In this document: positions 9,515 to 61,330 of the stretch, in pieces
Numbering within the stretch: position 1 is the stretch's first letter
Layout of the letters: the number at the start of each line of letters is the position of its first letter
Source of the DNA: Fictibacillus enclensis
GTDB lineage: Bacteria; Bacillota; Bacilli; Bacillales; Fictibacillaceae
Reading direction: 5' to 3'
Assembly: GCF_001457035.1 (NCBI RefSeq)
Contig: NZ_KQ758617.1
Span: 682,001 to 746,000 of the forward strand
Length of the DNA stretch: 64,000 nucleotides
The notes under the pieces: model-generated
Told to the model about the DNA's origin: nothing
Database searches by the model: none
What the model saw: the letters and a program-made list of their open reading frames with translations, nothing else
Position numbers and translations under genes: made by a program

Positions 9515-9521
9515 TTCACAG

Positions 9522-47185: not shown

Positions 47186-47784
47186 TACAGATCCTCCCTA
47201 TAAGCAGCTTCATAATCGTCCGGCGTGTTCAAGTTTAAAAGAATGCGAGGGTCAACGGTTTTCAGCAGTTTAACCCTTTTATGGTGCTTTTTAATGATGC
47301 TCCGCAATCCTTCCGTCTCTTCTGTAATCAGTAGCAGCTCGGAATAAAGAAGGCTTGGCAGAAGAGTCGGATGCCCCCGTTTCCCGTTATGGACAGGGAT
47401 GATAATAGATTCTGGATCGGATTTATGAAGCTTGTCCATTTGGCAGAGAACCTCAGACAAAAGAGGCTGATCAACCGCAGCAATAAGGACACCGGTCGAA
47501 TTCTTATCCATGCCATGCCATCCGATTCTGATGGATGAGCATTTTCCAGAAGAATAGTCGTTATTCTTTACTATTTTCACAGAGCTGCCATTCAATTCCC
47601 TGCTTATTTCAGCGGCTCCAAAGCCGAGTACGGCCACCACATCCTTAATCCCTGCGTGTTGAATGGTTTTAACCTGATAAGCGATAAGAGATAGCCCCTG
47701 CCATCGAAGAAGAGCTTTGTTTTGGTTCATACGGGAAGACCTGCCTGCCGCAAGCAGAATACAGGATAGGCTGGAAGCGGTCAT
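47185..47784 (-). CDS. pucB: Molybdenum cofactor nucleotidyltransferase (PucB/MocA-like)
   Basis: The 199-residue protein has the nucleotidyltransferase start LAAGRSSRMNQNKAL and the AAVDQPLL metal motif. It should convert the molybdenum cofactor to its dinucleotide form for xanthine dehydrogenase, as MocA and PucB do. It lies within the xdh operon, three bases after the iron-sulfur subunit gene. Confidence 0.9.
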   Translation of the reverse strand: MTASSLSCILLAAGRSSRMNQNKALLRWQGLSLIAYQVKTIQHAGIKDVVAVLGFGAAEISRELNGSSVKIVKNNDYSSGKCSSIRIGWHGMDKNSTGVLIAAVDQPLLSEVLCQMDKLHKSDPESIIIPVHNGKRGHPTLLPSLLYSELLLITEETEGLRSIIKKHHKRVKLLKTVDPRILLNLNTPDDYEAAYREDL

Positions 47785-47787
47785 GCT

Positions 47788-48270
47788 CTAAAGTTCCCTG
47801 AACGTCAGTTGTTTTTCAGCTGCTGTTTGAACGGCCTTCAGTATTTTTGTATAGCCTGTACAACGGCAAAGGTTGCCGCCTAGTGCCTGCTTGATTTCGT
47901 CCAGGCCGGGCAGGTGGCCGATGCTGTTCAAATAAGATCTTGCAGATACAATCAGACCTGGCGTACAGTAGCCGCATTGGGTAGCCCCCTCATCCATAAA
48001 CGCTTGCTGGACGGGATCCATATTTTCCGGTGTGCCAATGCCTTCCACTGTAATGATGTTTTCCCCATGAACCTGTCCGGCGAGCACGAGGCAGGAACAA
48101 ACTGGCAGGCCGTTTAGCGACACGGTACAAGAACCGCATTCTCCCTTGCCGCAGCATTCCTTACTGCCGGTTAAACCCGCATCTTCCCGGAGAACCTCCA
48201 GAAGTGTTTTCGAAGGACTGCATGTAACCGAAATCTCTGTTCCATTTACGAAAAAATCAATGGTCTTCAT
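47788..48270 (-). CDS. pucE: Xanthine dehydrogenase, 2Fe-2S subunit
   Basis: This 160-residue subunit has a plant-type ferredoxin cluster (CCGKGECGSCTV) and the second helical cluster (QCGYCTPG ... NLCRCTGY). The upstream part of the open frame is not family-like, and ATG 48270 has GGGAGG before it, so it is the start. It is the first gene of the minus-strand operon, divergent from the permease at 48447; the 176-bp gap should hold both promoters. Confidence 0.95.
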   Translation of the reverse strand: MKTIDFFVNGTEISVTCSPSKTLLEVLREDAGLTGSKECCGKGECGSCTVSLNGLPVCSCLVLAGQVHGENIITVEGIGTPENMDPVQQAFMDEGATQCGYCTPGLIVSARSYLNSIGHLPGLDEIKQALGGNLCRCTGYTKILKAVQTAAEKQLTFREL

Positions 48271-48446: not shown

Positions 48447-49769
48447 ATGGCTCAATTGAAAACGTGGAAAGTAGGAGTACTTGGTCTGCAGCATGTTCTT
48501 GCCATGTATGCCGGAGCAGTCATTGTACCGCTCATCGTTGGACCGGCCATTGGGATGAATGCCCAGCAGCTGGCCTATCTGATCTCTATTGACCTGTTTA
48601 CCTGCGGAATTGCCACCCTGCTGCAGGTTATTGGCGGTAGGCATTTTGGTATCAGGTTACCGGTCATTCTCGGCTGTACATTCACAGCTGTGGCGCCCAT
48701 GATTGCCATTGGAAAACTTGAAGGAATTACGGCGATTTATGGCGCGATTATCGCCTCGGGACTGGTCGTCATGGTGCTTTCACAGTTTGTCGGCAAAATC
48801 CTTAAATTTTTTCCGCCGGTTGTAACAGGTTCAGTTGTACTCATTATCGGGGTGTCGCTGATCCCGGTTGCCATGAACAATGCGGCAGGGGGACTTGGAT
48901 CGAAAGGATTTGGCAGTCTGGAAAATTTGGCACTTGCAAGTTTTACATTCTTGCTGATCATTTTAATTAACCGGTTTTCCAGAGGCTATGTCCGGGCGAT
49001 CTCTGTATTGTTATCTCTGATCGCGGGAACCGTTCTTGCTTCCTTTATGGGGATTGTGGATGTCACCCCTGTTAAAGATGCGTCCTGGTTTCATATGGTA
49101 CAGCCGTTTTATTTCGGAATGCCTGAATTTCACGTTTCGGCCATACTCACCATGTCTATTGTCGCCATTGTGAGCATGATTGAGTCTACCGGTGTATTTC
49201 TCGCGTTAGGGGACATTTGCGACCGGAAGCTTGAATCCCGGGACATTAAGAAAGGCTTGAGGGCAGAAGGATTTGCTATTGTGATTGGCGGAATTTTTAA
49301 TTCCTTTCCCTATACATCCTTCTCACAGAACGTTGGGCTTGTGGCATTGACAAAAGTAAGAACAAGAAATGTGGTCATTGCCGCTGGCGGCTTTTTAATA
49401 CTTCTGGGCCTGCTTCCCAAGATTGCGGCTCTCACCACCATTATTCCAACGGCAGTCCTTGGCGGGGCGATGGTACCGATGTTTGGAATGGTCATTGCTT
49501 CAGGTGTGAAAATGCTGTCACAAGCCGATTTTTCAAGCAATGAAAATCTTCTGATTGTCGCTTGTTCGGTAGGAATCGGGTTAGGAACTGCCGTCGTTCC
49601 CATGGTGTTCAGCGAGCTTCCGGACGGTGTAAGGCTCCTTGTGGAAAATGGGATCGTCATTGGAAGTTTAACGGCAATTTTGCTGAATCTAGTATTTAAT
49701 TTCAAGTCTATGAATATACATGAGCAGGAAAGGATGAAGCAGCTGAAAGCCGATGGGGACGCAATATAA
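48447..49769 (+). CDS. NCS2 xanthine/urate-type permease (PbuX/PucK-like)
   Basis: The 440-residue membrane protein starts like PbuX and PucK (LGLQHVLAMYAGAVIVPL) and has the NCS2 signature area SFSQNVGLVALTKVRTRNV. The conserved substrate-site segment MSIVAIVSMIEST lies in the middle. It imports xanthine or urate with protons. It is divergent from the xanthine dehydrogenase operon and lies 92 bases upstream of the microcompartment operon with no terminator between, so it probably supplies that pathway. Confidence 0.9.
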   Translation: MAQLKTWKVGVLGLQHVLAMYAGAVIVPLIVGPAIGMNAQQLAYLISIDLFTCGIATLLQVIGGRHFGIRLPVILGCTFTAVAPMIAIGKLEGITAIYGAIIASGLVVMVLSQFVGKILKFFPPVVTGSVVLIIGVSLIPVAMNNAAGGLGSKGFGSLENLALASFTFLLIILINRFSRGYVRAISVLLSLIAGTVLASFMGIVDVTPVKDASWFHMVQPFYFGMPEFHVSAILTMSIVAIVSMIESTGVFLALGDICDRKLESRDIKKGLRAEGFAIVIGGIFNSFPYTSFSQNVGLVALTKVRTRNVVIAAGGFLILLGLLPKIAALTTIIPTAVLGGAMVPMFGMVIASGVKMLSQADFSSNENLLIVACSVGIGLGTAVVPMVFSELPDGVRLLVENGIVIGSLTAILLNLVFNFKSMNIHEQERMKQLKADGDAI

Positions 49770-49861: not shown

Positions 49862-51334
49862 ATGGATCTGATTTTAAAAAATGCAATGATCCCACAAGGA
49901 GACCGGACGGTAATCACCAACATTCTCGTGCATGAGGGCAGGATTACCGGCTTTTGCAATGATATTCAAACCTTAAATGCGGACAAGGTACTGGACATGG
50001 AGGGCAAACTGGTGGTTCCAGGCTGTATTGATCCGCATACTCATTTTATGGATCCAGGGTTCACCCACCGGGAAACGTTTGCGACAGGTTCACGGTCAGC
50101 GGCAGCGGGAGGATTAACGACCATTATTGATATGCCATGTTGTTCCAAGCCTTCTGTACGAGATGGGGAGAGCTTTCAGAAAAAAATCGCTCCAATCCGG
50201 GGACAGGCGTATATTGATTATTGCTTCTGGGGCGGCATGACGGGAGAGGATGCCCGCAATGGCTGGATCGATAACATCTATCCACAAATCGATGAAGGTG
50301 TTGTAGCGTTCAAGGTATACATGACGCCATCCGTGCCAACCTTTCCGAAAGTGTCCGATGGCGAAATGCTGGAGATTTTTCAAAAAGTCGCAAAAACAGG
50401 AATGCCAATCGGGGTTCATGCGGAGAACTATGATATTTGTACCTTCTATACAGAAAAGCTGAAGAATGAAGGAAGGGAAGATGGCCCGGCCTGGGCAGAA
50501 GCACGGATGGCGCTTGCGGAAAAAGTAGCCATTGAACTTATTATCAGCTATGCAGAAGCCACGGATGCGCGTGTTCATGTCGTTCATATGAGCACCAAAG
50601 AAGGCGTTAAACTGGTACGTGAAGCGAAAAAACGCGGTGTTAAGGTGACATCGGAAACGTGTCCTCATTACTTGATGCTGAATGCACAGGACTCCATGAC
50701 CGAAAGAGGAACCTTTGCCAAAATCGCTCCTCCTCTGAGAGGCAAGGACGATAACCAGGCTCACTGGCAGGCATTGGCAGATGGAACTATTGACTTTGTA
50801 GGCACAGATCATGCGCCATATGAAATCGCAACTGAAAAGGCCGCAGCCGATTCTTCCATATGGAACAGCTTCCCTGGCATTCCGGGTGTGGAGACCATGG
50901 TTCCGATCCTGGTCAGCGAGGGACTGAACAAAGGACGGCTGTCGCTATCCCGTTTTGTTGAAGTAACAAGCAAGAATGCCGCGGTTCATTATGGCATCTA
51001 TCCGAAAAAAGGAGCCATGGAAATCGGCAGTGATGCCGATTTTACGGTTATTGATCTTGATCATGAGTGGGTCATTGATGAAAAACAGACAGAGTCGATG
51101 GCCAAATACAATCCATTGCACGGAATCAAGCTCAAAGGGCGCCCGGTGCGGACGATCTTAAGAGGAACCGTTGTCTATGACTATGAAAAAGGCGGAATTA
51201 CAGGTACAGCCGGATACGGAGAATACGTGAAACGACAGAGCATCCAGCGCCTTGAGCGAATGCTGAAGTATGAAAACTATGAAACGGCAAATCAACCATC
51301 AGCCGCACGGCAGCAGCTGGAAAAAAGCAAATAA
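49862..51334 (+). CDS. Cyclic amidohydrolase (allantoinase/dihydropyrimidinase/dihydroorotase type)
   Basis: This 490-residue enzyme has a complete binuclear metal site: H59-x-H61, carboxylated lysine K151 (VVAFKVYMTPS), H186 (GVHAEN), H242 (VHVVHMS) and D316 (VGTDHAPYE), and the CPHYL motif near 267. Such enzymes open cyclic amides or imides. Allantoin is the textbook guess. In this operon I infer xanthine, opened at the bond equivalent to that cut by dihydropyrimidinase to give 4-ureido-5-imidazolecarboxylate. It is the first gene of a compact operon running to 59856. The C-terminus carries about 30 extra polar residues after the last family motif. Confidence 0.9.
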   Translation: MDLILKNAMIPQGDRTVITNILVHEGRITGFCNDIQTLNADKVLDMEGKLVVPGCIDPHTHFMDPGFTHRETFATGSRSAAAGGLTTIIDMPCCSKPSVRDGESFQKKIAPIRGQAYIDYCFWGGMTGEDARNGWIDNIYPQIDEGVVAFKVYMTPSVPTFPKVSDGEMLEIFQKVAKTGMPIGVHAENYDICTFYTEKLKNEGREDGPAWAEARMALAEKVAIELIISYAEATDARVHVVHMSTKEGVKLVREAKKRGVKVTSETCPHYLMLNAQDSMTERGTFAKIAPPLRGKDDNQAHWQALADGTIDFVGTDHAPYEIATEKAAADSSIWNSFPGIPGVETMVPILVSEGLNKGRLSLSRFVEVTSKNAAVHYGIYPKKGAMEIGSDADFTVIDLDHEWVIDEKQTESMAKYNPLHGIKLKGRPVRTILRGTVVYDYEKGGITGTAGYGEYVKRQSIQRLERMLKYENYETANQPSAARQQLEKSK

Positions 51335-51348
51335 GAAAGGAGATGCCT

Positions 51349-51939
51349 ATGGAATTGAGGGGAAAGAAGCATGTGGTTGTGGTCATTGACATGCTGAATG
51401 ACTTTATTGGGGAAAAAGCGGCACTTCGCTGTGAAAATGGAGAGAAAATCGTTCCAGCCATTAAAGAGCTCGTGGACTTTTGCCATGAAGAGAATATACA
51501 GGTTGTGTTCGTCCAGGAAGCTCACCGGCAAAATGACCGTGATTTCCGGGTCCGTCCTGTTCATGCGATAAAAGGAACATGGGGCTCGCAGTTCATTCCC
51601 GAACTTCAGCCGGATGAAAGCAAGGGAGATTATGTGGTTCAAAAAAGAAGACACAGTGCATTCAGCTATACCGATTTTGATTTGTTCTGCCGGGAAGAGG
51701 AAATAGATACCGTCGTGCTGACAGGGGTATGGACCAATGTGTGCGTGAGAAGCACCGGTTCTGACGCGCTTTATCATGGCTACAACGTGATTTGCCTGTC
51801 GGATTCCACAGCCTCCAAGGATGATTCAATGCATGAATCCGGACTTCGGGACATTGATTTATTCGGAGACATCATGACAACGAAAGAGTACATGGAAGCG
51901 GCAAGAAAAAAGTTCTCGAATAACAACCAGGTCGTATAA
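51349..51939 (+). CDS. Cysteine hydrolase, isochorismatase family (N-carbamoyl hydrolase candidate)
   Basis: The 196-residue enzyme has the triad D14 (VVIDMLNDF), K99 (QKRRHSAF) and C132 (TGVWTNVCVRST). Relatives include nicotinamidase, N-carbamoylsarcosine amidohydrolase and ureidoacrylate hydrolase RutB. Placed after a cyclic amidohydrolase, it is well suited to remove the carbamoyl group from a ureido acid, releasing CO2 and ammonia. Start ATG 51349 gives AAAGGAG a proper spacing; ATG 51343 touches that site. The next gene begins six bases on. Confidence 0.9.
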   Translation: MELRGKKHVVVVIDMLNDFIGEKAALRCENGEKIVPAIKELVDFCHEENIQVVFVQEAHRQNDRDFRVRPVHAIKGTWGSQFIPELQPDESKGDYVVQKRRHSAFSYTDFDLFCREEEIDTVVLTGVWTNVCVRSTGSDALYHGYNVICLSDSTASKDDSMHESGLRDIDLFGDIMTTKEYMEAARKKFSNNNQVV

Positions 51940-51945
51940 TCTGCC

Positions 51946-52515
51946 ATGGGCCAAAACAAACGGATCATTGTCGGTGTAACAGGAGCGAGCGGTGCTCTGT
52001 ATGGCTACTCGCTCGTCCGGGCCCTGCATCAGCTGGGAATCGAAACGCACCTGATCGTTACCCAGATGGGAGAAAAGGTGCTGCAGTTTGAATGCGGGAT
52101 CAGCATGGAAGCACTGAAGCCGTATGCTGAGATTCACAGCAATAAAAATTTATTTGCTTCCATTGCCAGTGGATCTTTTTTAACGGATGGAATGGTGGTT
52201 GTCCCTTGCTCGATGAACTCGCTCGGTTCACTTGCTAATGGTGTCGGTGACACATTGCTCAGCCGTGCTGCGAGCGTCGTGCTGAAGGAGAGACGGCAGC
52301 TGATCGTTGTCCCAAGGGAAGCTCCTTTTCATCTCATCCATCTTCAGAACATGACGAGGCTTGCGGAGGCAGGAGCCTGCATTATGCCCGCTTCACCAGG
52401 TTTTTATCATAAGCCGAAGGAGATTTGGGAGCTGGTGAACTTTATGTCCGGGAGAATTCTGGACATGTTGGGAATTGACCATGCGCTTCTGGAGCGATGG
52501 GGGGAGAAAGAATGA
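51946..52515 (+). CDS. UbiX-family flavin prenyltransferase
   Basis: The 189-residue protein has the UbiX start IIVGVTGASGALYG, the PCSMNSLGSLANGVGDTLL segment and VVPREAPF. UbiX makes prenylated FMN, the cofactor of UbiD decarboxylases. It overlaps the UbiD gene by four bases (ATGA), so the two products are made together. Quinone synthesis is unlikely as its role, given the purine and shell neighbours. Confidence 0.95.
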   Translation: MGQNKRIIVGVTGASGALYGYSLVRALHQLGIETHLIVTQMGEKVLQFECGISMEALKPYAEIHSNKNLFASIASGSFLTDGMVVVPCSMNSLGSLANGVGDTLLSRAASVVLKERRQLIVVPREAPFHLIHLQNMTRLAEAGACIMPASPGFYHKPKEIWELVNFMSGRILDMLGIDHALLERWGEKE

Positions 52516-53852
52516 ATCCAGCCACACTTCGTTCACTGCTGGACCAGTGGGATTCCGAACAAAAGCTTCTTCGTGTAAAAAGAGAGGTGGATCCGCTTTA
52601 TGAACTGGGAGCCGTCCTTAAATCAAAACAGGGAAAGCAGCCGTTTTATTTTGAAAACGTAAAAGGCTATCACTCTCCCATGGTCGGAGGCCTCGGAGGA
52701 GACCGCCAGCTTGTAGCGGACAGTATCGGTGTTCCTGTCAATCAGCTTATTCCAAAAATCATCCAGTCGATTGTAACTCCCATCCCAACCCACTTGGTGG
52801 CCTCCGGGCCAGTGCATGACAATGTCATTCTCGGCTCGTTCGATTTGGATACTCTTTTCCCCATCCCTACGTTTCATGAAGAGGATTCAGGTTCTTATTA
52901 TGTTTCAGGAATTCTTGTGGTCAAGGACCCTTCAGGCCTAAGACGCTACACGTCCATCAGAAGGATGCAGTTTCTCGGAGAGAACAAGACCAGTGTTCTT
53001 ATTACTTCCCCCGAATTGCTTCATCAATTTTATGATTATGAAAAGCGGAATGAACCGATGGAAGTTGCCGTTATGTTTGGTGTTGTTCCGGCCGTGGTTC
53101 TCAGCTCACAAATCAGCACGCACCTGTACCATACCGACAAGCTGGATGTAGCGGGAGCATTGATCGGCCAGGCGCTGGATGTGGTTCAGTGCCGGACGGT
53201 CGATCTGGAAGTTCTTGCTGAAGCCGAGATTGTGCTGGAAGGAAAGGTGCTGCCTCATGCAAGGGAGTTGGAAGGGCCGTTCGGTGAACTGGCCGGATAT
53301 TATGGAACCCGCGCATTGCAGCCTGTAATTGAGTTTTCTGCGGTTACGTACCGTGATCAGGCCATTTGCCAGACGATTTTCCCATCAAGTTATGAAGAAC
53401 GGCTGCCCATGGCGCTCGTACGTGAAGCCACGCTGTTGAGCACGGTCAGACAGACCGTGCCCAATGTAAAAAAAGTTCATATCACCATGGGTGGTGTGGC
53501 CAGGTTCCACGCGGTGATTCAAATTGAAAAGGTAACAGAAGGGGACGGGAAACAAGCTGCTCTTGCAGCTTTTGCCAGTGATAAGGATCTGAAGCATGTG
53601 ATTGTCGTGGATGAAGATGTGGACATCTTTAACCCGGAAGATGTGGAGTGGGCGCTGGCGGTAAGGGTGCAGGCCGACCAGGATATTTTCATTGTTCCGG
53701 GTGCAAAGGGCTCGCCTCTTGAAGCCTCTCACAACCTTAGAGGGGTCACGGCGAAGATGGGTGTGGATGCAACTGTTCCTTTGGACAAAAAAGAGGTGTT
53801 TAAGCGGACCTCTGTTCCGTTTGGTCCGATTGATTTAAAAGATTATTTGTAA
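52512..53852 (+). CDS. UbiD-family prenylated-FMN decarboxylase
   Basis: This 446-residue enzyme has UbiD landmarks: LRVKREVDP near 20-30, the GLRRYTSIRRMQ region, and LEGPFGELAGYY with catalytic-region acids E254 and E259. UbiD enzymes reversibly decarboxylate aromatic, heteroaromatic or acrylic acids and are often oxygen sensitive. Inferred substrate is 4-amino-5-imidazolecarboxylate, giving 4-aminoimidazole. Other heteroaromatic acids cannot be excluded. Eighteen bases later the first shell gene begins. Confidence 0.94.
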   Translation: MNPATLRSLLDQWDSEQKLLRVKREVDPLYELGAVLKSKQGKQPFYFENVKGYHSPMVGGLGGDRQLVADSIGVPVNQLIPKIIQSIVTPIPTHLVASGPVHDNVILGSFDLDTLFPIPTFHEEDSGSYYVSGILVVKDPSGLRRYTSIRRMQFLGENKTSVLITSPELLHQFYDYEKRNEPMEVAVMFGVVPAVVLSSQISTHLYHTDKLDVAGALIGQALDVVQCRTVDLEVLAEAEIVLEGKVLPHARELEGPFGELAGYYGTRALQPVIEFSAVTYRDQAICQTIFPSSYEERLPMALVREATLLSTVRQTVPNVKKVHITMGGVARFHAVIQIEKVTEGDGKQAALAAFASDKDLKHVIVVDEDVDIFNPEDVEWALAVRVQADQDIFIVPGAKGSPLEASHNLRGVTAKMGVDATVPLDKKEVFKRTSVPFGPIDLKDYL

Positions 53853-53870
53853 ACAAGGAGGAACGCAGGA

Positions 53871-54134
53871 TTGAATGCGATCGGCATGATTGAAACACGG
53901 GGGCTGACGGCTGCTGTTGAAGCGTTGGATGCGATGGCTAAAGCGGCAAATGTTCAGTTGACCTCATTTAAAAAGGTAGGTTCAGGATTGGTTACAGTCA
54001 TTATAGAGGGAGATGTGGCTGCCGTTTCGTCCGCCATTGAAGTGGGCAGGCAGGCTCACATTCAAACAGGGGGAGAGCTCATCTCATCGAATGTAATTCC
54101 ACGGCCACATTCCGAACTGGCAAAGATTCTGTAG
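53871..54134 (+). CDS. BMC-H shell protein 1 (hexamer)
   Basis: The 87-residue single BMC domain is a compact PduA/EutM/CcmK-type protein: NAIGMIETRGLTAAVEALDAM, KAANV, KKVGSGLVTVIIEGDVAAV and [13 protein letters not shown]. The pore loop is KVGSG as in canonical small-pore hexamers. It starts at TTG after AAGGAGG. Hexamers tile the facets of bacterial microcompartments. Confidence 0.96.
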   Translation: MNAIGMIETRGLTAAVEALDAMAKAANVQLTSFKKVGSGLVTVIIEGDVAAVSSAIEVGRQAHIQTGGELISSNVIPRPHSELAKIL

Positions 54135-54149
54135 GGGAGGTGGGAGCTC

Positions 54150-55016
54150 GTGTCAGAATTTATGCGTGCGATTGTTCAAGAAGTGCTTCGCCCGGCTGAA
54201 CGGCCGCCAAAAAAGGAAAAAGAGCCTCCTGCAGTTCATCAGAAGCTGCACCGGCCAAACTATCAGAATGCCATGCGGGAAAAACGGTTGAACGAGTTGA
54301 AGGGAAATAATGAGAAAATCACATCTCCAGATGATGAGCTCGTTTCCCGGTTGAATATCCTGACACTTGCCCAGGGAGCTGAGAGAGGAATAACTGTACC
54401 TGCAAATCATGGGACCGAAAACACCGCCGCCGGACAACCGTGCGGCCGGCTGATCGGATCAGCCCCATCGGGTCTGGCCGCCTGGCTCTATACCAATCTT
54501 CCGCATGAAAGGCTGGAATGGTTTCATCGCCCAATTCCCGCCCAGGGAGTTGCCGTTTTCTCCGCTCCTGTATCATCTCCCGGACAGCTTGTCATCCTTC
54601 AGGAGGAATTAAGCCGTACGGAGGATATGAAATATTTCATTCAATGGGACAAAAACGGGAAGACGGCCTTTCTTTTGGAACTCTTTCATAACGATTGCAG
54701 GTTACTTGAAACTACCGCAGAAAACATGTGGCAATCTCTAAACCGTCAAACGAAAAAAAAGAATAAACTTTTTTACTTGGAGCAGCCGGGATCATGGCTG
54801 TTGAACCAGCTGGAACTCACGGGAATAAGAGGGGCTGTTGCCATTATGGAAGGTCTTGGCCGGTATGAATCCTATTCTCTTCTTTTGCCGGTGCTGCAAG
54901 AGCTCGCATCAACCAATATCAGATACAGGATTGAGGAGAAATATCTGGTTCTTTATGGTGCTCATGAACAGCTTGCCAGCTATTTGCCCGGTTTTTTCGG
55001 AGAAATCCAACAGTAA
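54150..55016 (+). CDS. Unknown 288-aa protein of the microcompartment operon
   Basis: No family is recognised. The N-terminus MSEFMRAIVQEVLRPAE is a short amphipathic helix followed by a Pro/Lys-rich linker (about 18-45) and a soluble body. This is the layout of encapsulation peptides on microcompartment cargo. The body has a Gly/Pro/Ala stretch near 105-150 and alternating helix/strand to the end. The C-terminal 55 residues (from GAVAIMEGLGRYES) faintly resemble a BMC domain order but lack its core motifs. GTG start after GGGGAGG, between two shell genes. Cargo, scaffold and shell accessory protein are all possible. Confidence 0.8.
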   Translation: MSEFMRAIVQEVLRPAERPPKKEKEPPAVHQKLHRPNYQNAMREKRLNELKGNNEKITSPDDELVSRLNILTLAQGAERGITVPANHGTENTAAGQPCGRLIGSAPSGLAAWLYTNLPHERLEWFHRPIPAQGVAVFSAPVSSPGQLVILQEELSRTEDMKYFIQWDKNGKTAFLLELFHNDCRLLETTAENMWQSLNRQTKKKNKLFYLEQPGSWLLNQLELTGIRGAVAIMEGLGRYESYSLLLPVLQELASTNIRYRIEEKYLVLYGAHEQLASYLPGFFGEIQQ

Positions 55017-55028
55017 GGAGTGAGAAAT

Positions 55029-55346
55029 GTGCATGCATTGGGCATGATTGAAACCGTCGGATATTGTGCCGCTGTATCCGCAGCAGATGCCGCTGTAAAA
55101 GCCGCTGATGTGAAGATTGCGGCGATCGAAAAAGTAATTGGCGTTCAGGGGGCATTAGGTGTCACCCTTCACCTCAGCGGAGATGTAGCCGCCGTGGCCT
55201 CAGCGGTTGATGCAGGGAAAAAGGAGGCCGAACGGGTGGGGAAGGTCATCTCAGCCCACGTTATTCCAAGCACTCACAGCAATGTGGCAGAAAAACTCCT
55301 GTCCCGGTTTAAGCTGAATGCAGATAAACAAACGGAGAGGGGTTAA
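55029..55346 (+). CDS. BMC-H shell protein 2 with enlarged pore loop
   Basis: The 105-residue BMC protein reads ALGMIETVGYCAAVSAADAAVKAADV. Its pore-loop segment KVIGVQGALGVTLHLSGD is four residues longer than the KVGSGLVTVIIEGD of shell protein 1. It also has a C-terminal tail of about 15 polar residues. GTG 55029 is taken because GGAG at 55017-55020 then has normal spacing; GTG 55020 overlaps it. The changed pore implies a different metabolite selectivity. Confidence 0.94.
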   Translation: MHALGMIETVGYCAAVSAADAAVKAADVKIAAIEKVIGVQGALGVTLHLSGDVAAVASAVDAGKKEAERVGKVISAHVIPSTHSNVAEKLLSRFKLNADKQTERG

Positions 55347-55691
55347 ATGTCTGAAGGTAATGAACAAAAAGCATCAACGGTGCCAATCCAAGAAAACAGG
55401 AGGAATAATAGAATGGGCGAAGCGTTAGGCTTGATTGAAACAAAAGGCCTGGTCGGTGCAATTGAAGCCGCAGATGCCATGGTGAAAGCTGCCAATGTGG
55501 AAATCTGCGGGTACGAAAAGGTAGGATTCGGTCTGGTGACCGTCATGGTAAGAGGGGACGTTGGTGCGGTAAAGGCGGCTACAGAGGCGGGGGCAAGTGC
55601 TGCGAGCCGTGTGGGAGAATTGGTATCTGTACATGTCATTCCACGCCCCCACAGTGAAATTGAAAGAGCGCTGCTGTCTAAAGGAGAATAA
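55347..55691 (+). CDS. BMC-H shell protein 3, possibly with two starts
   Basis: The BMC domain ([54 protein letters not shown]) is preceded by a 22-residue polar extension if translation begins at ATG 55347, which directly follows the previous stop and has GAGAGGGG before it. An internal ATG at 55413 has a perfect CAGGAGG with ideal spacing and gives a standard 92-residue hexamer protein. Both starts look usable. The pore loop has GFG where protein 1 has GSG, placing an aromatic side chain at the pore. Confidence 0.93.
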
Positions 55692-55693
55692 GA

Positions 55694-56419
55694 GTGTATG
55701 GCGCCAGGCAGAGTACGGTCGTAAAAAATACCCTGCTTGAACTGCTTTTTTCGGAGAATAAGGAAGTTCCGCGTGTCCTTTCACTCTTAACCTATCACTT
55801 CACAGGGATGGAGCAAGGTTGGACACTGCTCAGGGAAGCGGGGAAAAAGAGAATCCGGATGGAAATCGTTGCAGAAGGAACGCTGCTGCAGCATATTACG
55901 ATTGCCAGTCTGGCCGCAGAGTGCCGTCACGACGCCCTGTATCCGGAATCCTTTTTAACAGGGGATGTTCTTCGGAGAACCGACTATGTCCTCATACCGG
56001 TTCTATCATTTTCTTTAGTTTCCGACCTTTTGCGGTTTAATGACCAAAGAACCTTGGTACGCTTTATTTTGCAGGCATTGCTTAACGGTAAAAAAGTAGT
56101 TGCACTGTCGTGCGGTGCAAATCCTTTTCATCCGGTGTTTGCCAATAAAAATTTGAACCTCGGAACAGATCACTTAAACGATAAGCTTTACAGCCAAATG
56201 ACTCAGCTTAAAAAGATGGGCATCAAAGTAGAGGGCTCAGATAACAGCGTGCTGTCCTGGCTGGAAGAAAAGAAAAAAAACGCCTTGATTACAGAAGCGG
56301 ATGTGCTGCAGGCTTTAAAAAAGGGCCGGAAATTCATTACTGCAGAGAAGCATGAAATCATTACACCGTTGGCAAGGGATGCGGCAAAACAACACAAAAT
56401 TTCGATTGCCAGAAAGTAA
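55694..56419 (+). CDS. Flavoprotein-like microcompartment accessory protein
   Basis: The 241-residue protein has an N-terminal region with VVKNTLLELL, a middle resembling the Flavoprotein (UbiX/Dfp-like) fold (YVLIPVLSFSLVSDLL ... KKVVALSCGANPFHP), and a C-terminal segment LITEADVLQALKKGRKFI followed by ITPLARDAAKQHKI. That last segment is of a type I associate with microcompartment-linked flavoproteins and EutQ-like proteins. Role unknown; cofactor handling for the decarboxylase is possible. GTG start after AAGGAG, two bases after shell protein 3. Confidence 0.65.
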   Translation: MYGARQSTVVKNTLLELLFSENKEVPRVLSLLTYHFTGMEQGWTLLREAGKKRIRMEIVAEGTLLQHITIASLAAECRHDALYPESFLTGDVLRRTDYVLIPVLSFSLVSDLLRFNDQRTLVRFILQALLNGKKVVALSCGANPFHPVFANKNLNLGTDHLNDKLYSQMTQLKKMGIKVEGSDNSVLSWLEEKKKNALITEADVLQALKKGRKFITAEKHEIITPLARDAAKQHKISIARK

Positions 56420-56431
56420 GGGGAAGCGAAT

Positions 56432-56710
56432 ATGTACATGGGCGTGGTGATTGGAAGAGTAACAGCTACACGAAAGGATGATAAATTGATAGGCACAAAA
56501 CTGCTGATTACACAGCCGATCGGCATGGGTGAATCCCAAAGCGGCATGCCGATCATTGCTGTAGATACGGTAGGTGCGGGTGTAGGAGAGAAGGTTCTTT
56601 ATGTTACGGGAAGCATGGCGTCCCGGGCGGCGGCCAATAAGGATGCACCCATTGATGCAGCCATTGTGGGCATCATTGACAGTCTCGATTGGGAAAGGCA
56701 GGGAGGTTAG
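56432..56710 (+). CDS. BMC-P shell vertex protein (EutN/CcmL family)
   Basis: This 92-residue EutN/CcmL protein reads MGVVIGRVTATRKDDKLIGTKLLITQP, then VDTVGAGVGEKVLYVTGSMASRAA, and PIDAAIVGIID at the end. Pentamers of this family cap the vertices of microcompartments, so with the BMC-H proteins the minimal shell set is present. ATG start after AAGGGGAAG. Confidence 0.96.
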   Translation: MYMGVVIGRVTATRKDDKLIGTKLLITQPIGMGESQSGMPIIAVDTVGAGVGEKVLYVTGSMASRAAANKDAPIDAAIVGIIDSLDWERQGG

Positions 56711-56714
56711 GAAT

Positions 56715-58535
56715 ATGGACACAAAAGGTATTAAAGAAGCCATTCAATGGAGGAAACTCATTGATGTGCTGCTTGATGCCAACCAGTATGCAGACACCAT
56801 TTTAAAGGGCGGCCAGTTTATTAATGTCATCACACGTGAAATTTATCCAGCCGATGTGGCCATAAAAGGAGAATATATTTTATTGGTTGGGGATTGCACA
56901 GACCTGGAAGGACCTTCAACCAAAGTGGAAGATGTGGAAGGTAAGTATATCTGCCCTGGTTTTATTGATTCTCATATGCATTTTGAAAGCGCAATGCTTA
57001 CAGTTACTGAATTTTCCAGGCTGTCTATCCCCACCGGAACGACCACGATTGTTGCTGATCCACATGAAATTGGTAATGTGCTCGGAGTGCATGGCATACA
57101 GGAAATGATTAAAGAGGCAAGGAGACTGCCCAACACGGTCTATTTTACCGTTCCCTGTTTAACGCCGGATGCTCCCGGACTGGAGACAGCAGGAAGGGAC
57201 ATTGGATCAGGGGACATGGCAGAACTGCTAAATGATCCTCTCGTACAGGGGATTGGTGAGATTCAGGGTTTCAGCAATGTCAGACCGGTCTACCAGCATG
57301 CTCCTGAACTCATTGATGATCTTATAGCGTCTGTTTCCTACGCAAAAAGCATCAACAAGACGGTGGAGGGAAATGCACCAGCTTTGTTCGGAAAAGAGCT
57401 CGCGGCCCATATTATTAGCGGAGGAAACCACATTTCCTGCCATGAGACGACGACCAAAGAAGAAATGATGGAAAAGCTGCGCAACGGTGTCAGTGTGTTC
57501 ATGAGAGAAGGATCATCCCAGCGGAATATGGCAGAATGCATCCGGGCAATCACGGAAGAAGGAATGGATTCCCGGCGTGCGATCCTCGTTTCAGATGATG
57601 TGGTACCGGAAGACCTTATGGAGATGGGCCATATGAATGACATTGTCAAAAGAACCATTGCACAGGGAATCGATCCGGTCGAGGCGATCCAGATGGTGAC
57701 CATCAATGCCGCTGCCCATTTTGGGTTTAAAGAAAGTGGTGTGCTTACTCCAGGAAAAAAGGCCGATATTGCTGTCATAAATGATCTGATGAACATGACG
57801 ATTGATTCAGTCTATCTTAAAGGGAAAAAAGCTGCACAGCAAAAGGAACTAATCATCGATCTTCCTGCTTACAAATACCCTGAAATTGTCAAATGCTCTG
57901 TCAAACGCAAATCGGTAAAAATAGATGATTTGGCCATTGAAGCTTCTGGATCCAGGGCACATGTCCGGGCCATTAAGGTGATCCCGGATCAAAATCTAAC
58001 TGGTTCGGCACAATTCCAGTTATCGGTTCGTGATGGAAAGATCCAGCCTTGCCTCCAGCAGGATGTATTGCCCCTATTGGTTCTCGAACGGCACGGCCGA
58101 TCAGGTCGTATCGGAAAAACCTTTCTTCACGGGTTTCAGTTGAAACGAGGCGCGATTGCCGAAAGCGTGGCGCATGACACGCACAATATCATCGTTTGCG
58201 GCACCAATTACGAAGATATGGTAACAGCGGTGAACAGGGTAATTGCGATGAATGGCGGAATTGCACTGATTCATAACGGACGAGTCGTCGGCGATCTGCC
58301 ACTGAACATCGGAGGATTGATGACCGACGAGATGACAGGGCAGGAAGTCAGTACACGAATTGCTGAACTTCACCGGCTGGCAGAGGAGGAATTAGGGTGC
58401 GCAATCCATGTTCCTTTTATGCATCTCTCTTTCTTGTCGCTGGTAACCAGCCCGGAATGGAAAATAACTGATATGGGATTGATCGACGTGGATTCCTTTA
58501 CGGTTATTCCTACTGTATTGAAGGAGGAAGGCTGA
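56715..58535 (+). CDS. Adenine-deaminase-family amidohydrolase with altered active site
   Basis: The 606-residue protein is clearly related to the adenine deaminase at 39556 (H87-x-H89, DPHEIGN, E182 in GEIQGF, D294 in LVSDD, AESVAHDTHNI). The conserved histidine of the GHxxG motif is asparagine (N220 in VEGNAPA), and the D-H-E motif has cysteine for aspartate (C242-H243-E244). It also has an N-terminal extension of about nine residues. With a normal ade elsewhere, another substrate is likely; I infer 4-aminoimidazole to 4-imidazolone. ATG 56715 lies four bases after the BMC-P gene. Confidence 0.88.
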   Translation: MDTKGIKEAIQWRKLIDVLLDANQYADTILKGGQFINVITREIYPADVAIKGEYILLVGDCTDLEGPSTKVEDVEGKYICPGFIDSHMHFESAMLTVTEFSRLSIPTGTTTIVADPHEIGNVLGVHGIQEMIKEARRLPNTVYFTVPCLTPDAPGLETAGRDIGSGDMAELLNDPLVQGIGEIQGFSNVRPVYQHAPELIDDLIASVSYAKSINKTVEGNAPALFGKELAAHIISGGNHISCHETTTKEEMMEKLRNGVSVFMREGSSQRNMAECIRAITEEGMDSRRAILVSDDVVPEDLMEMGHMNDIVKRTIAQGIDPVEAIQMVTINAAAHFGFKESGVLTPGKKADIAVINDLMNMTIDSVYLKGKKAAQQKELIIDLPAYKYPEIVKCSVKRKSVKIDDLAIEASGSRAHVRAIKVIPDQNLTGSAQFQLSVRDGKIQPCLQQDVLPLLVLERHGRSGRIGKTFLHGFQLKRGAIAESVAHDTHNIIVCGTNYEDMVTAVNRVIAMNGGIALIHNGRVVGDLPLNIGGLMTDEMTGQEVSTRIAELHRLAEEELGCAIHVPFMHLSFLSLVTSPEWKITDMGLIDVDSFTVIPTVLKEEG

Positions 58536-59218
58536 TGGGGGTGAAACTTGTTGATTTGTCGCAGGAGATTTACCAGGGCATGCCCGTCTTTCCTCTTCAT
58601 CAAAAAACAATGATTTTTCCCAATCTTTCTCATGAGGAAAGCATTAAAAAGATCGGTTTCCCCTTTGCCACAAACAACCTTCTCATCAATGAGCACGGAC
58701 CGACACACAGCGACGCCACTTACGAGTATGATCCCGGCGGGAAGTATATTGACGAAATGCCGCTTGACTATTTTTACGGACCAGCCGTTTGTCTTGATCT
58801 CTCCCACATTCAGCCGGAAGACTATATCACACCAGTTGAACTGGAAAATGCTCTGGACCGTTCGGGACAGCTCCTCCAAAAGGGAGATATATGCCTTCTG
58901 TATACAGGGCATTATAACCGTGCCTATGGAACAGAGGAATGGCTGAACAGGTATTCCGGCCTGGATTATGAAGGTGCCCGATGGCTTGCTGAAAAAGGGG
59001 TGGTAAACATCGGAATTGATGCGCCTGCTATTGACAATCCGCTGGATTTGGACTACTCGGGACACCTGATCTGCAAGGAATACGGCATCACCAATACGGA
59101 AAACCTCTGTAATCTTGATCAGGTCGCAAATATGCGGTTCCTCTATTTTGGCCTCCCACTAAGAATCCGGAATGGAACGGGGTCGCCAGTGCGGGCTGTA
59201 GCTGTTTTTATTGAATAG
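58535..59218 (+). CDS. Cyclase-family (KynB/isatin hydrolase-like) metal hydrolase
   Basis: The 227-residue protein belongs to the cyclase family (PF04199 type): LVDLSQEIYQGMPVFP at the start and the metal motif H54-G-P-T-H58-S-D60. The usual third histidine of HxxxHxDxxxH is E64 here. Relatives hydrolyse formyl amides or the cyclic amide of isatin. I infer opening of 4-imidazolone to formiminoglycine. Its ATG overlaps the previous stop (TGATG) and follows AAGGAGG. Confidence 0.88.
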   Translation: MGVKLVDLSQEIYQGMPVFPLHQKTMIFPNLSHEESIKKIGFPFATNNLLINEHGPTHSDATYEYDPGGKYIDEMPLDYFYGPAVCLDLSHIQPEDYITPVELENALDRSGQLLQKGDICLLYTGHYNRAYGTEEWLNRYSGLDYEGARWLAEKGVVNIGIDAPAIDNPLDLDYSGHLICKEYGITNTENLCNLDQVANMRFLYFGLPLRIRNGTGSPVRAVAVFIE

Positions 59219-59229
59219 GAGGAGTAGCC

Positions 59230-59856
59230 ATGTCCATTCACGATACCTACCGAATTAAGGAGGAAATCTTGATTCCGGCTTATGAGGGCAGAAGCACCCT
59301 CATAAAAGCAGGGGAGGAGCTTATCATTATTGATGTGGATGGAAAGCAGGTTGGGGACTTTGTCTGCTTTTCACTGCAAGATCCGGATGAATATGTTTCG
59401 CCTGTTCATATGAGGGCCAGCTTAGGCAGTATTTCACTGAAGGCAGGCGATCTGCTGTACAGCAACCGCCGGCGGCCGCTCATGCAGCTGGTTCAGGATA
59501 CGGTGGGCAAGCATGATTTTTTCTTTCCAGCCTGCGACTATTACCGGTACAAAGTAGACTTTGGACTCGAAGACCATCCGAACTGCCATGATAATTTAAA
59601 CAAAGCGCTAGCCTATTATTCACTCGGTCATCTTCCGGTACCTGATCCGATCAACTGGTTTATGAATAATATTCTTGATGAAAATGGAGATTACGTTATC
59701 AGTGAACCGCTTTCCAAGCCAGGAGATTTTGTACGGTTAAAAGCACTGGATGATGTCATCGTTGCCTGCTCCACTTGTTCCCAGGATCTTGCACCGGTGA
59801 ACGGCTTTAAAGTAACGGAACTAAAACTTCAGATTTTAAATAAAGCACGTATTTAA
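59230..59856 (+). CDS. DUF1989 protein (urea carboxylase-associated / carboxyguanidine deiminase family)
   Basis: This 208-residue protein has DUF1989 features: IIDVDGKQVGDFVCF, KHDFFFPACDYYRY, EDHPNCHDNL with H116, C119 and H120, and the cysteine pair C180-x2-C183. Characterised members form the two-subunit carboxyguanidine deiminase, so the family can hydrolyse an amidine C=NH to C=O. Formiminoglycine is chemically such a substrate, which would end the inferred pathway with release of ammonia. Only one DUF1989 gene is present here. It is the last gene before the riboswitch. Confidence 0.9.
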   Translation: MSIHDTYRIKEEILIPAYEGRSTLIKAGEELIIIDVDGKQVGDFVCFSLQDPDEYVSPVHMRASLGSISLKAGDLLYSNRRRPLMQLVQDTVGKHDFFFPACDYYRYKVDFGLEDHPNCHDNLNKALAYYSLGHLPVPDPINWFMNNILDENGDYVISEPLSKPGDFVRLKALDDVIVACSTCSQDLAPVNGFKVTELKLQILNKARI

Positions 59857-59886
59857 CATTAGGGTTTTTAGAAGTAAACCCATATC

Positions 59887-59960
59887 GATTTCATATAGTT
59901 TCGATAATACGGATCGAAAGTATCTACTGGAGTACCTTAAATATTCCATGCTATGAAATC
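59887..59960 (+). promoter_or_regulatory. Variant purine (guanine-class) riboswitch aptamer
   Basis: A three-way junction is visible. P1 is GATTTCATA/TATGAAATC (59887-59895, 59952-59960). P2 is 7 bp (59899-59905, 59913-59919) with 7-nt loop AATACGG. P3 is 7 bp (59928-59934, 59942-59948) with 7-nt loop CCTTAAA. J2/3 GTATCTAC matches the guanine-riboswitch GTTTCTAC except at the flipped-out position 48. Loop GG (59911-59912) can pair with loop CC (59935-59936). J3/1 is TGC rather than the usual AC/AU, keeping C74 but changing A73 and adding one base. Confidence 0.87.
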
Positions 59961-59963
59961 ATT

Positions 59964-59994
59964 CTTTTCTTTTTGCCCCGATAAGGAGGAAAAG
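59964..59994 (+). promoter_or_regulatory. Possible ribosome-binding-site hairpin below the riboswitch
   Basis: CTTTTCTTTTT (59964-59974) can pair over 11 positions, three of them G-U, with AAGGAGGAAAAG (59983-59994), which contains the Shine-Dalgarno sequence of the next gene. It starts four bases after P1 and could be a translational expression platform. No terminator with a T run is present. Confidence 0.5.
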
Positions 59995-59995
59995 C

Positions 59996-61330
59996 ATGTC
60001 TTCATTGATCATAAAAAACGCTGAAATCATCACAATGAACGAAAAGGAAGAAATCGTACATGGCGACCTTTACGTTGAGGACAACCGAATTAAAGAGATC
60101 GGGCCGGGGCTCGACCGCCATGCGGATGTCATCATTAATGCGAAACATAAAACGGTTATTCCCGGTTTTGTCCAAACGCATATTCACCTGTGCCAGACCT
60201 TATTCAGGGGACAGGCAGATGATCTCGAATTGATGGACTGGCTCCGGCAAAAAATATGGCCGCTTGAAGCTTCCCATGATGAAGAATCGATCTATTATTC
60301 GGCATTGCTGGGAACGGGTGAACTGATACAGAGCGGCACAACCACCATCGTGGATATGGAAACCGTCAATCATACGGACGCTGCATTTCAAGCGATCGCA
60401 CAAAGCGGCATACGGGCTCTGTCGGGAAAAGTAATGATGGATAAGGGAACGGATGTTCCAAGCCCCTTGAGGGAAAGTACGTCAAAGTCGCTGCAGCAGA
60501 GCGCTGACCTGCTGGAAAAGTGGCATGGGAGGGAAAATGGCCGTATTCAATATGCTTTTTGCCCACGTTTTGTTGTTTCCTGCAGTGAGGAGCTGCTCAC
60601 CGAAGTGCGTAATCTTTCAAAGCAGCATGGCGTGTTTGTACATACCCATGCGGCAGAAAACAAGGGTGAGATCGCCATTGTCGAACAGGAAACGGGAATG
60701 CGAAATGTGATGTATCTCGATCATATCGGACTTGCAAACGAAAAATTAATTCTCGCTCATTGTGTGTGGCTCAATGAGGAGGAAAAAAGCATCATCAAAA
60801 AACGCAAAGTGAAGGTAAGCCATTGTCCGGGCTCCAACTTGAAACTTTCTTCCGGCATTGCAGAGGTGCCGCAAATGCTGAGGGAGGATATTTTCATCAG
60901 CCTGGGTGCAGATGGAGCCCCGTGTAACAACAATCTGGACATGCTAAATGAAATGAGGCTTGCTGCTCTCATCCAAAAACCGATTCACGGTCCAACCTCG
61001 ATGAATGCAAAAACCGTGTTTAAAATGGCCACCATCGGCGGAGCAAGAGCAGTCGGCATGGAACATGAGATTGGAAGTCTTGAAGTGGGAAAAAAAGCGG
61101 ACATGGCCATTCTGAATCTTAATGATTTTCATATGTATCCATCCTATGGAACGGACCCCATTTCCCGTATCGTTTATTCAGCTACGCGGGCGGATGTCGA
61201 GACGGTGATTATTGATGGAAACATCGCGATGGAAAATCGCATGATGAAAAGGATGGATAAACATACGGTTCTCCATGAATCGAACAAATGTATCCGGCGG
61301 CTGCTGAAACGAAGTGAAGGAGTTTATTGA
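59996..61330 (+). CDS. TrzA/DadD/SsnA-type amidohydrolase (purine-related deaminase)
   Basis: This 444-residue enzyme of the COG0402 group has H62-x-H64 (FVQTHIHLCQTLFRG), RFVVSCSEELL, HTHAAEN, LAHCVWL and the metal aspartate in SLGADGAPCNNN. Relatives deaminate guanine, 8-oxoguanine, methylthioadenosine, 5'-deoxyadenosine or triazines. The variant purine riboswitch in front points to a purine or purine-like substrate. A role in guanine to xanthine conversion or in the aminoimidazole step is possible. Its 3' end lies only six bases from the convergent germination operon, without a visible terminator. Confidence 0.88.
   Translation: MSSLIIKNAEIITMNEKEEIVHGDLYVEDNRIKEIGPGLDRHADVIINAKHKTVIPGFVQTHIHLCQTLFRGQADDLELMDWLRQKIWPLEASHDEESIYYSALLGTGELIQSGTTTIVDMETVNHTDAAFQAIAQSGIRALSGKVMMDKGTDVPSPLRESTSKSLQQSADLLEKWHGRENGRIQYAFCPRFVVSCSEELLTEVRNLSKQHGVFVHTHAAENKGEIAIVEQETGMRNVMYLDHIGLANEKLILAHCVWLNEEEKSIIKKRKVKVSHCPGSNLKLSSGIAEVPQMLREDIFISLGADGAPCNNNLDMLNEMRLAALIQKPIHGPTSMNAKTVFKMATIGGARAVGMEHEIGSLEVGKKADMAILNLNDFHMYPSYGTDPISRIVYSATRADVETVIIDGNIAMENRMMKRMDKHTVLHESNKCIRRLLKRSEGVY

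Follow-up and report, generated by a model that had tools for sequence, protein, structure and literature searches.

The operon and its genes

The stretch of DNA considered here (the window) comprises 64,000 nucleotides of Fictibacillus enclensis (contig NZ_KQ758617.1, positions 682,001 to 746,000 of the forward strand), a member of an aerobic genus, and carries an operon for a bacterial microcompartment (BMC). The operon occupies positions 49862 to 59856 of the window on the plus strand and consists of 13 open reading frames (ORFs), each with an in-frame start and stop, which follow one another at distances of 8, 6, -19, 18, 15, 3, 0, 2, 12, 4, -1, and 11 bases. Judged from sequence comparison, the locus is likely to be the Bacilli form of the xanthine utilisation (XAU, or BUF1) microcompartment, with a stepwise pathway leading to formiminoglycine. 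Its genes are as follows.

49862..51334, plus strand: cyclic amidohydrolase (allantoinase/hydantoinase-like), putative xanthinase (Pfam Amidohydro_1; TIGR03178)
51343..51939, plus strand: isochorismatase-fold cysteine hydrolase, putative 4-ureido-5-imidazolecarboxylate amidohydrolase (decarbamoylation; Pfam Isochorismatase, 1.2e-47)
51946..52515, plus strand: UbiX flavin prenyltransferase (Pfam Flavoprotein; NCBIfam NF004685, 223.7 bits against a cut-off of 188)
52497..53852, plus strand: UbiD-family decarboxylase, putative 4-amino-5-imidazolecarboxylate decarboxylase (Pfam UbiD N, middle, and C; TIGR00148 above its cut-off)
53871..54134, plus strand: BMC-H shell protein 1 (PF00936, 1.9e-28)
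54150..55016, plus strand: probable diverged BMC-T of PduB/EtuB/EutL type, with an N-terminal helix and linker (predicted fold; PF00936 matches of relatives)
55020..55346, plus strand: BMC-H shell protein 2 (PF00936, 9.5e-22)
55347..55691, plus strand: BMC-H shell protein 3 (PF00936, 8.3e-30)
55694..56419, plus strand: TIGR02536/PduM-like microcompartment-associated protein (TIGR02536, 1.6e-13, below its cut-off)
56432..56710, plus strand: BMC-P pentamer vertex protein (PF03319, EutN_CcmL, 1.5e-29)
56715..58535, plus strand: adenine-deaminase-like (Ade-like) amidohydrolase, putative 4-aminoimidazole deaminase (PF13382, Adenine_deam_C; TIGR01178)
58535..59218, plus strand: cyclase-family hydrolase, putative 4-imidazolonase yielding formiminoglycine (PF04199, Cyclase, 2.2e-34)
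59230..59856, plus strand: DUF1989 protein, putative formiminoglycine deiminase yielding N-formylglycine and ammonia (PF09347, 1.2e-50)

An earlier note on this DNA had described one compact operon, and every gene that it listed is present. Its count of three BMC-H and one BMC-P shell proteins is recovered by Pfam in full, but the BMC-T gene at 54150-55016 was overlooked; this gene and the PduM-like gene at 55694-56419 were both missing from its list. As it also stated, aldehyde dehydrogenase, PduL-type phosphotransacylase (PTAC), alcohol dehydrogenase, and glycyl-radical families have no Pfam match among the 13 operon genes. An aldehyde-type metabolosome was rejected, since its core enzymes, including aldehyde dehydrogenase, are absent from the operon. 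Promoter-like and terminator-like sites did not exceed the level of shuffled sequence (10 against a mean of 15.4, and 12 against a mean of 12.5, respectively).

Distribution of the locus

The UbiD protein was searched in 100 relatives, 398 genomes of the phylum, 397 of the order, 3 of one class, and 391 of another, and a UbiD pattern search of a contig collection returned 6 loci. Reading of the neighbourhoods places the compartment locus in at least 33 genomes, the window's own included, and since the arrangement recurs in this way it is not due to chance. There are 16 Bacilli (G000, G002-G006, G316, G520, G623, G665, G680, G720, G739, G753, G764, and G1183, which is Evansella vedderi) and 17 genomes from other classes of the phylum, presumably anaerobic and clostridial (G147, G186, G221, G269, G224, G294, G913, G935, G948, G991, G1003, G1051, G1056, G1061, G1102, G1129, and G1156); five of the latter (G269, G224, G1051, G1102, and G1156) are less than 90% complete. 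Genomes G002-G006 were read over 4.3 kb, and G002, G003, G004, and G005 correspond to loci L026, L030, L025, and L027. Locus numbers are lower bounds, with weaker UbiD matches outside the reading, and the enzyme and shell content was counted as far as the contigs and fetched stretches reach. Within these limits the cyclase is found in 15 of the 16 Bacilli; among the 17 genomes from other classes the count is also 15, and the remaining genomes of both groups are cut by a contig end or lie outside the stretches read. An apparent loss of the amidohydrolase and isochorismatase from G316 was rejected, as the contig that carries UbiD also holds both, at a distance of about 17 kb.

Some matches were excluded from the counts. 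The UbiD matches in G101, G440, G276, G309, G189, G260, G328, and G102 belong to other pathways by neighbourhoods read over up to 20 kb, and loci L002-L004 and L011-L014 were set aside after a check restricted to 4.3 kb. A plasmid search yielded only UbiD relatives of less than 60% identity, in 28 records. The window's own genome holds a UbiD paralogue on another contig (L077:3-10833), 42% identical to the operon UbiD, which was excluded as a member of a different pathway by its neighbourhood (likewise read over up to 20 kb). Its cluster also encodes a molybdenum-hydroxylase iron-sulfur subunit, an acyl-CoA ligase, and an enoyl-CoA hydratase, and resembles what we take to be a furan-acid degradation cluster.

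The proposed pathway

From gene content, homology, conserved residues, and co-occurrence, all of which are observed, we infer the substrates, the contents of the shell, and the tail of the pathway as follows. Xanthine would enter from outside the cell or be produced by the dehydrogenase and deaminases encoded in the flanks. The cyclic amidohydrolase would open its ring, the isochorismatase-fold enzyme would decarbamoylate the product, and UbiD, a prenylated flavin mononucleotide (prFMN) enzyme with a cofactor supplied by UbiX, would carry out the decarboxylation; the Ade-like enzyme would then deaminate, and the cyclase-family enzyme would open the second ring to give formiminoglycine. The shell, which would be built of three BMC-H, one diverged BMC-T, and one BMC-P, may enclose the middle steps and retain reactive intermediates (e.g., 4-aminoimidazole). 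In Bacilli, where formiminotransferase was not found in the genomes with the locus, DUF1989 may remove the imino nitrogen, giving N-formylglycine and ammonia; glycine and formate could then be released by an M20 hydrolase in most of the Bacilli that are not Fictibacillus. The 2023 work of Tong is said to describe four hydrolases from different families together with a prFMN decarboxylase.

Residues of presumed catalytic meaning, as we take it from the respective families, are invariant in alignments from which rows below set length or identity limits had been removed beforehand. They are H59, H61, K151, H186, H242, and D316 of the cyclic amidohydrolase (34/34 rows); D16, K101, and C134 of the isochorismatase-fold hydrolase (35/35); R155, E259, and E264 of UbiD (33/33); H54, H58, and D60 of the cyclase (30/30); and H89, H91, and E184 of the Ade-like enzyme (28 aligned rows), which at many fixed positions is unlike the four sequences of a second Ade group. 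The closest solved relative of the isochorismatase-fold enzyme is 3hb7, with N-carbamoylsarcosine, biuret, and ureidoacrylate hydrolases among the further ones, and that of UbiD is 6h6v (409 bits), which we take to be the furan-dicarboxylate decarboxylase HmfF, an enzyme with a five-membered heteroaromatic substrate. Conserved gene pairs are mostly consistent with consecutive pathway steps. The proposal of the earlier note that the enzyme families match the xanthine steps in order thus finds support in the invariant residues, in these gene pairs, and in the purine riboswitches described below.

The shell

Of the 15 genes whose conservation outside the genus was compared, that for BMC-H shell protein 3 ranks highest: its mean identity is 92% over eight other Bacillales-type loci and 83% over eleven loci from outside the Bacilli. 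The protein encoded at 54150-55016 has no Pfam match. Its AlphaFold2 model (mean pLDDT 75.4, pTM 0.60, with low confidence at residues 14-33 and 53-92) finds PduB (2.4e-6), EtuB (4.0e-5), and EutL (1.3e-3) as best Foldseek matches, at moderate TM-scores of 0.39-0.45 by query and 0.48-0.57 by target. The BMC domain PF00936 is matched by 5 of 19 aligned positional counterparts (best 7.2e-20), which appear, by the look of the rows, to be the non-Bacilli ones. With good, though not full, confidence, we therefore regard the predicted protein as probably a diverged BMC-T shell protein. It changes fast: mean identity is 64% across four other loci of Fictibacillus and drops to 27% across eight other loci of Bacillales type, the corresponding values for UbiD being 88% and 71%. 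In L110, L112, L113, L114, L115, L118, and L120 the BMC-T position is held by a protein of 93-160 amino acids, mostly starting M(A/S)NPL; the one checked, in L112, has no Pfam match.

The TIGR02536/PduM-like protein at 55694-56419 is fast-evolving and has a predicted fold like that of the flavoprotein UbiX (model pLDDT 87.0; Foldseek UbiX 2.2e-5); the operon also holds a true UbiX. Loci L061, L062, and L063, of one non-Bacilli genus, include within the run of shell genes an actin/Hsp70-fold protein (checked at L063:12684-13493) that we assume to be EutJ-like. A small MpsC-domain protein lies near the locus at L028:6721-7083 and L098:4524-4880 (Pfam), and similar ORFs were seen by eye in L060, L100, L101, L102, L103, and L104.

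As to what the shell is for, retention of 4-aminoimidazole is a reasonable guess. The earlier note had argued that it shields intermediates from oxygen in an aerobic Bacillus, and this is a weak rationale because shell genes accompany these enzymes in the 17 genomes from other classes as well.

Purine context

The genes and elements on either side of the operon are the following.

39556-41295, minus strand: second adenine deaminase (Ade-type; profile matches)
41363-42712, minus strand: AzgA-like permease (named by reading only)
43196..48270, minus strand: xanthine dehydrogenase gene set (XdhC-like, Mo subunit, FAD subunit, MobA-like, and 2Fe-2S subunit; Pfam for four of the five)
43196-44020, minus strand: XdhC-like gene of this set (by reading only)
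48447..49769, plus strand: xanthine/uracil permease (PF00860, 1.1e-119)
59871..59973, plus strand: purine riboswitch aptamer (RF00167, 69.8 bits, E 1.2e-10, gathering score 37)
59996..61330, plus strand: 5'-deoxyadenosine deaminase behind the riboswitch (NF005557, 722.1 against a cut-off of 522)

The xanthine dehydrogenase set and the second adenine deaminase are divergent to the operon, and the permease at 48447-49769 precedes it on the same strand. In the riboswitch at 59871-59973, the position that we presume to set specificity is a C (guanine type), and an adjoining core base is altered. Beyond the window, a scan of 13 other loci of Bacilli found a purine riboswitch in seven (2/6 and 5/7); the scan left out other loci, L101 among them. 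Five of the seven lie upstream of xanthine dehydrogenase genes, that of L027 lies upstream of a deoxyadenosine deaminase, and that of L026 has the equivalent position. Two close relatives of the window, L025 and L030, have no riboswitch at the gathering threshold. The one non-Bacilli locus checked for it (L115) has a PucR regulator.

Uricase (PF01014) has no match in the window's own genome and was found in one of the 16 Bacilli genomes with the locus, the Bacillus subtilis control being positive; other oxidative routes were not searched for. Among the 16, only G753 thus combines a uricase match with the xanthine locus. Elsewhere in the window, a run of ORFs at 8162-16507 resembles, by eye only, a siderophore biosynthesis cluster.

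The end of the pathway

The two groups of genomes differ in their genes for the presumed end of the pathway. FTCD_N (PF07837), the formiminotransferase domain, matches in 0/16 Bacilli, the window's own genome among them, and in 17/17 genomes of other classes with the locus, and DUF1989 (PF09347) matches in 16/16 and 0/17, respectively. The start of DUF1989 in the 16 Bacilli is about 6.8-7.6 kb away from that of UbiD (the linkage in G006 being taken from coordinates), and in the 15 genomes that were read the gene adjoins the cyclase. For 12 of the 17 genomes from other classes, UbiD and an FTCD match share a contig and are no more than about 14 kb apart. DUF1989 is not found in G001, a Fictibacillus without the locus; of the two genomes with early enzymes and no shell genes nearby, G336 has FTCD and G262 has neither. 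Ten of the Bacilli genomes are not from Fictibacillus, and in 9 of them an M20 hydrolase directly follows DUF1989; in several loci the ends of the two genes touch or overlap. The exception, G316, has an M20 relative (47-48%) elsewhere in the genome. In Evansella, the M20 gene is followed by two neighbouring ORFs, each of which matches part of formate dehydrogenase alpha with a score below the cut-off.

The DUF1989 protein of the locus, which was also aligned to 3oru and trimethylamine N-oxide (TMAO) demethylase, keeps the metal-site cysteines C102, C119, and C183 in 15/15 rows from xanthine loci. It scores below the cut-offs of UAAP2 (TIGR03424, 116.3 against 284.7) and UAAP1 (TIGR03425, 67.1 against 205.95), models that the other DUF1989 pair of the same genome passes (307.9 and 301.6). 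The metal-site cysteines are kept in the CgdA-like row of that pair and missing from the CgdB-like row. The pair (UAAP1/UAAP2) lies on another contig (L145:621-5736), beside a urea/guanidine-type carboxylase of 1218 amino acids, and is probably part of a separate guanidine cluster, giving the genome two more DUF1989 proteins. Among described members of the family (papers are cited from excerpts here and below), CgdAB are carboxyguanidine deiminases with one inactive subunit (PMC11410670, PMC11271267), and in TMAO demethylase zinc is bound by three cysteines of the DUF1989 domain (PMC12560246).

An amidine deiminase, with the amidine formiminoglycine as its substrate, is the simplest reading of the DUF1989 protein. 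We lean toward the view that in Bacilli the folate-dependent end has been replaced by a hydrolytic one, with DUF1989 as formiminoglycine deiminase, which would be an activity new to its family, and the linked M20 enzyme as N-formylglycine deformylase, so that xanthine would be converted to glycine, formate, CO2, and ammonia without tetrahydrofolate. Several observations count against it. The alternation of DUF1989 and FTCD follows the division between Bacilli and other classes, and FTCD_N has no match in any of 299 genomes of the window's order; it may therefore be a single replacement, not independent evidence. Among the 17 other genomes, five (G935, G1056, G913, G224, and G1102) have FTCD on a different contig from UbiD, and multiple FTCD_N matches occur in 11; because of this placement and multiplicity, some FTCD may serve histidine breakdown.

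A less probable, though by no means negligible, alternative is that DUF1989 and M20 serve a different nitrogen compound while another enzyme of Bacilli handles formiminoglycine, which would be compatible with the xanthine pathway. It could account for the lack of an M20 orthologue in Fictibacillus (best identity 31-34%), which is a further difficulty for the hydrolytic end, and it fits the match of M20 to a general ArgE/DapE deacylase model and the action of further DUF1989 members on carboxyguanidine or TMAO in the excerpts cited above. Against it stand the presence of DUF1989 in the locus of all 16 Bacilli and its absence from all 17 genomes with FTCD; moreover, separate UAAP1/UAAP2 genes lie beside the urea/guanidine-type carboxylase, and the copy in the xanthine locus fails both models.

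Which enzyme opens which ring

In line with the order in the earlier note, gene neighbourhoods favour the cyclic amidohydrolase as the xanthinase and the cyclase as the imidazolonase, and on balance we adopt these roles. The amidohydrolase gene adjoins the isochorismatase gene in 34/34 loci that hold it; most of these were found via UbiD, and L141 and L142 via the amidohydrolase itself. In the latter two the pair is detached as a two-gene unit without UbiD, and in L066 and L067 it occurs with UbiD and no shell genes nearby. The cyclase, for its part, adjoins DUF1989 in the window and in all 14 fetched Bacilli loci with the DUF1989 gene of the xanthine locus, and it adjoins FTCD in eight loci (L110, L111, L112, L114, L115, L118, L120, and L144). 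In L144, the cyclase, FTCD, and FTCD_C (named by likeness) form a cluster of their own, away from the amidohydrolase. The cyclase lies about 7 kb from FTCD in L105-L107, and has no FTCD within the stretch in L071, L113, L116, L117, and L119.

It is unlikely, in our estimate, that the two ring openers are swapped, the cyclase-family enzyme opening xanthine and the cyclic amidohydrolase opening imidazolone within the same xanthine compartment, as the text of Ravcheev 2019 would have it. There, Amet_4587 is credited with opening xanthine and Amet_4584 with the five-ring step (PMC6620236), and the gene order of L118 maps the former to the cyclase and the latter to the cyclic amidohydrolase, because 4586, 4583, and 4581 then become FTCD, isochorismatase, and UbiD. 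The position of FTCD also speaks for the exchange and against the roles adopted here, as in 7 of the 8 cyclase-FTCD loci it stands between the cyclase and the amidohydrolase, on the strand of the latter; for this reason FTCD alone is no arbiter of which enzyme is the imidazolonase, and only L144 speaks clearly. Against the exchange, the mapping of the Amet numbers is ours and the passage is numerically inconsistent, the amidohydrolase keeps to the isochorismatase throughout, whether detached with it or accompanied by UbiD, and the cyclase keeps to DUF1989 in the loci of Bacilli and, in L144, is grouped with FTCD and not with the amidohydrolase.

Other substrates

The xanthine assignment as a whole has points against it. 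The cyclic amidohydrolase passes the allantoinase model TIGR03178, if marginally (358.3 against a cut-off of 357.85), a name that was not adopted as its function because of the gene context, and the Ade-like enzyme passes the adenine deaminase model TIGR01178 (480.4 against 472.5). None of seven non-Bacilli loci scanned has a purine riboswitch. In two genomes, G336 and G262, no shell genes lie near the locus that encodes the amidohydrolase, isochorismatase, and UbiD (L066 and L067), so the shell is not always linked to the early enzymes.

That the compartment instead degrades another cyclic ureide (allantoin, hydantoin, or a pyrimidine) we regard as very improbable: the first enzyme barely passes the allantoinase model and has the L-hydantoinase 1gkr as best solved relative, and the isochorismatase resembles RutB and BiuH, but UbiD and UbiX are fixed members of the locus, the flanks encode xanthine dehydrogenase, a xanthine/uracil permease, and purine deaminases, and the regulatory elements include purine riboswitches and, in L115, PucR. 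We know of no role for a prFMN decarboxylase in allantoin, hydantoin, or pyrimidine pathways. The allantoin route was rejected, as it would leave UbiD without a role in a genome with no uricase match.

Comparison with known systems

The xanthine reading is well supported and already in print, so that the earlier note's suspicion that the locus type might be catalogued was right and its view that the pathway assignment would be new was not. Axen 2014 defined BUF by clustered amidohydrolases, deaminase, carboxy-lyase, isochorismatase, and formiminotransferases (PMC4207490), and Ravcheev 2019 predicted that BUF serves xanthine utilisation (Xau), giving a step order and naming Bacillus loci (PMC6620236). 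In the excerpts seen, Sutter 2021 retains the BUF types (PMC8217296), BUF1 is tied to xanthine (PMC8156839), and the XAU class appears in a further paper (PMC11346464). The genes for the pathway in Clostridium acidurici were still unknown in 2012 (PMC3519856), and a xanthinase gene cluster in Clostridia and Bacilli, credited to Tong 2023, is described with a xanthinase kcat of 0.1 per second (PMC12507026).

Three things are added here: the probable identification of the BMC-T shell protein, evidence that favours one order for the two ring openers, and a tail that is likely to be hydrolytic. If correct, the last would give two protein families a concrete and easily assayed reaction and explain how the pathway is completed in organisms without formiminotransferase. 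A role of DUF1989 or of the M20 enzyme in this tail was not found in the literature searched, which excluded the texts of Tong 2023 and Schneider 2020, and a literature search pairing formiminoglycine with a deiminase gave no match. The assignments would also settle the enzyme roles ring by ring in the proposed purine microcompartment, and Fictibacillus offers a culturable host in which to ask why the xanthine pathway has a shell.

Aldehyde metabolosomes (EUT, PDU, and GRM) share with this operon the TIGR02536/PduM-like accessory protein and differ in their aldehyde core enzymes, none of which it has. CgdAB belong to the same family as the DUF1989 protein of the operon (PF09347), with the metal-site cysteines shared with the genome's own CgdA-like protein; they are two genes, whereas the xanthine locus has one, 24-29% identical to the genome's own pair and failing the UAAP1 and UAAP2 models.

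The likeness is closest to the published Xau/XAU/BUF1 loci, with which the operon has in common the shell genes, amidohydrolases, isochorismatase, carboxy-lyase, and deaminase, a xanthine dehydrogenase nearby, and the lack of an aldehyde dehydrogenase. Formiminotransferase (XauG, PF07837), with no match in the window's own genome, is not defining for the Bacilli form, because Ravcheev 2019 also reports it missing from the clusters of Bacillus fordii and Bacillus sp. 2_A_57_CT2 (PMC6620236). Three differences from the published description stand out: DUF1989 takes the place of formiminotransferase, a feature not discussed in the passages of the Xau literature at hand; the BMC-T is too diverged for Pfam; and the roles of the two ring openers are apparently reversed with respect to the text of Ravcheev. 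The anaerobic xanthinase pathway (Rabinowitz 1956; Tong 2023) has the same order of reactions as that proposed here; its classical end is formimino transfer to tetrahydrofolate, whereas the end in this operon is probably hydrolytic.

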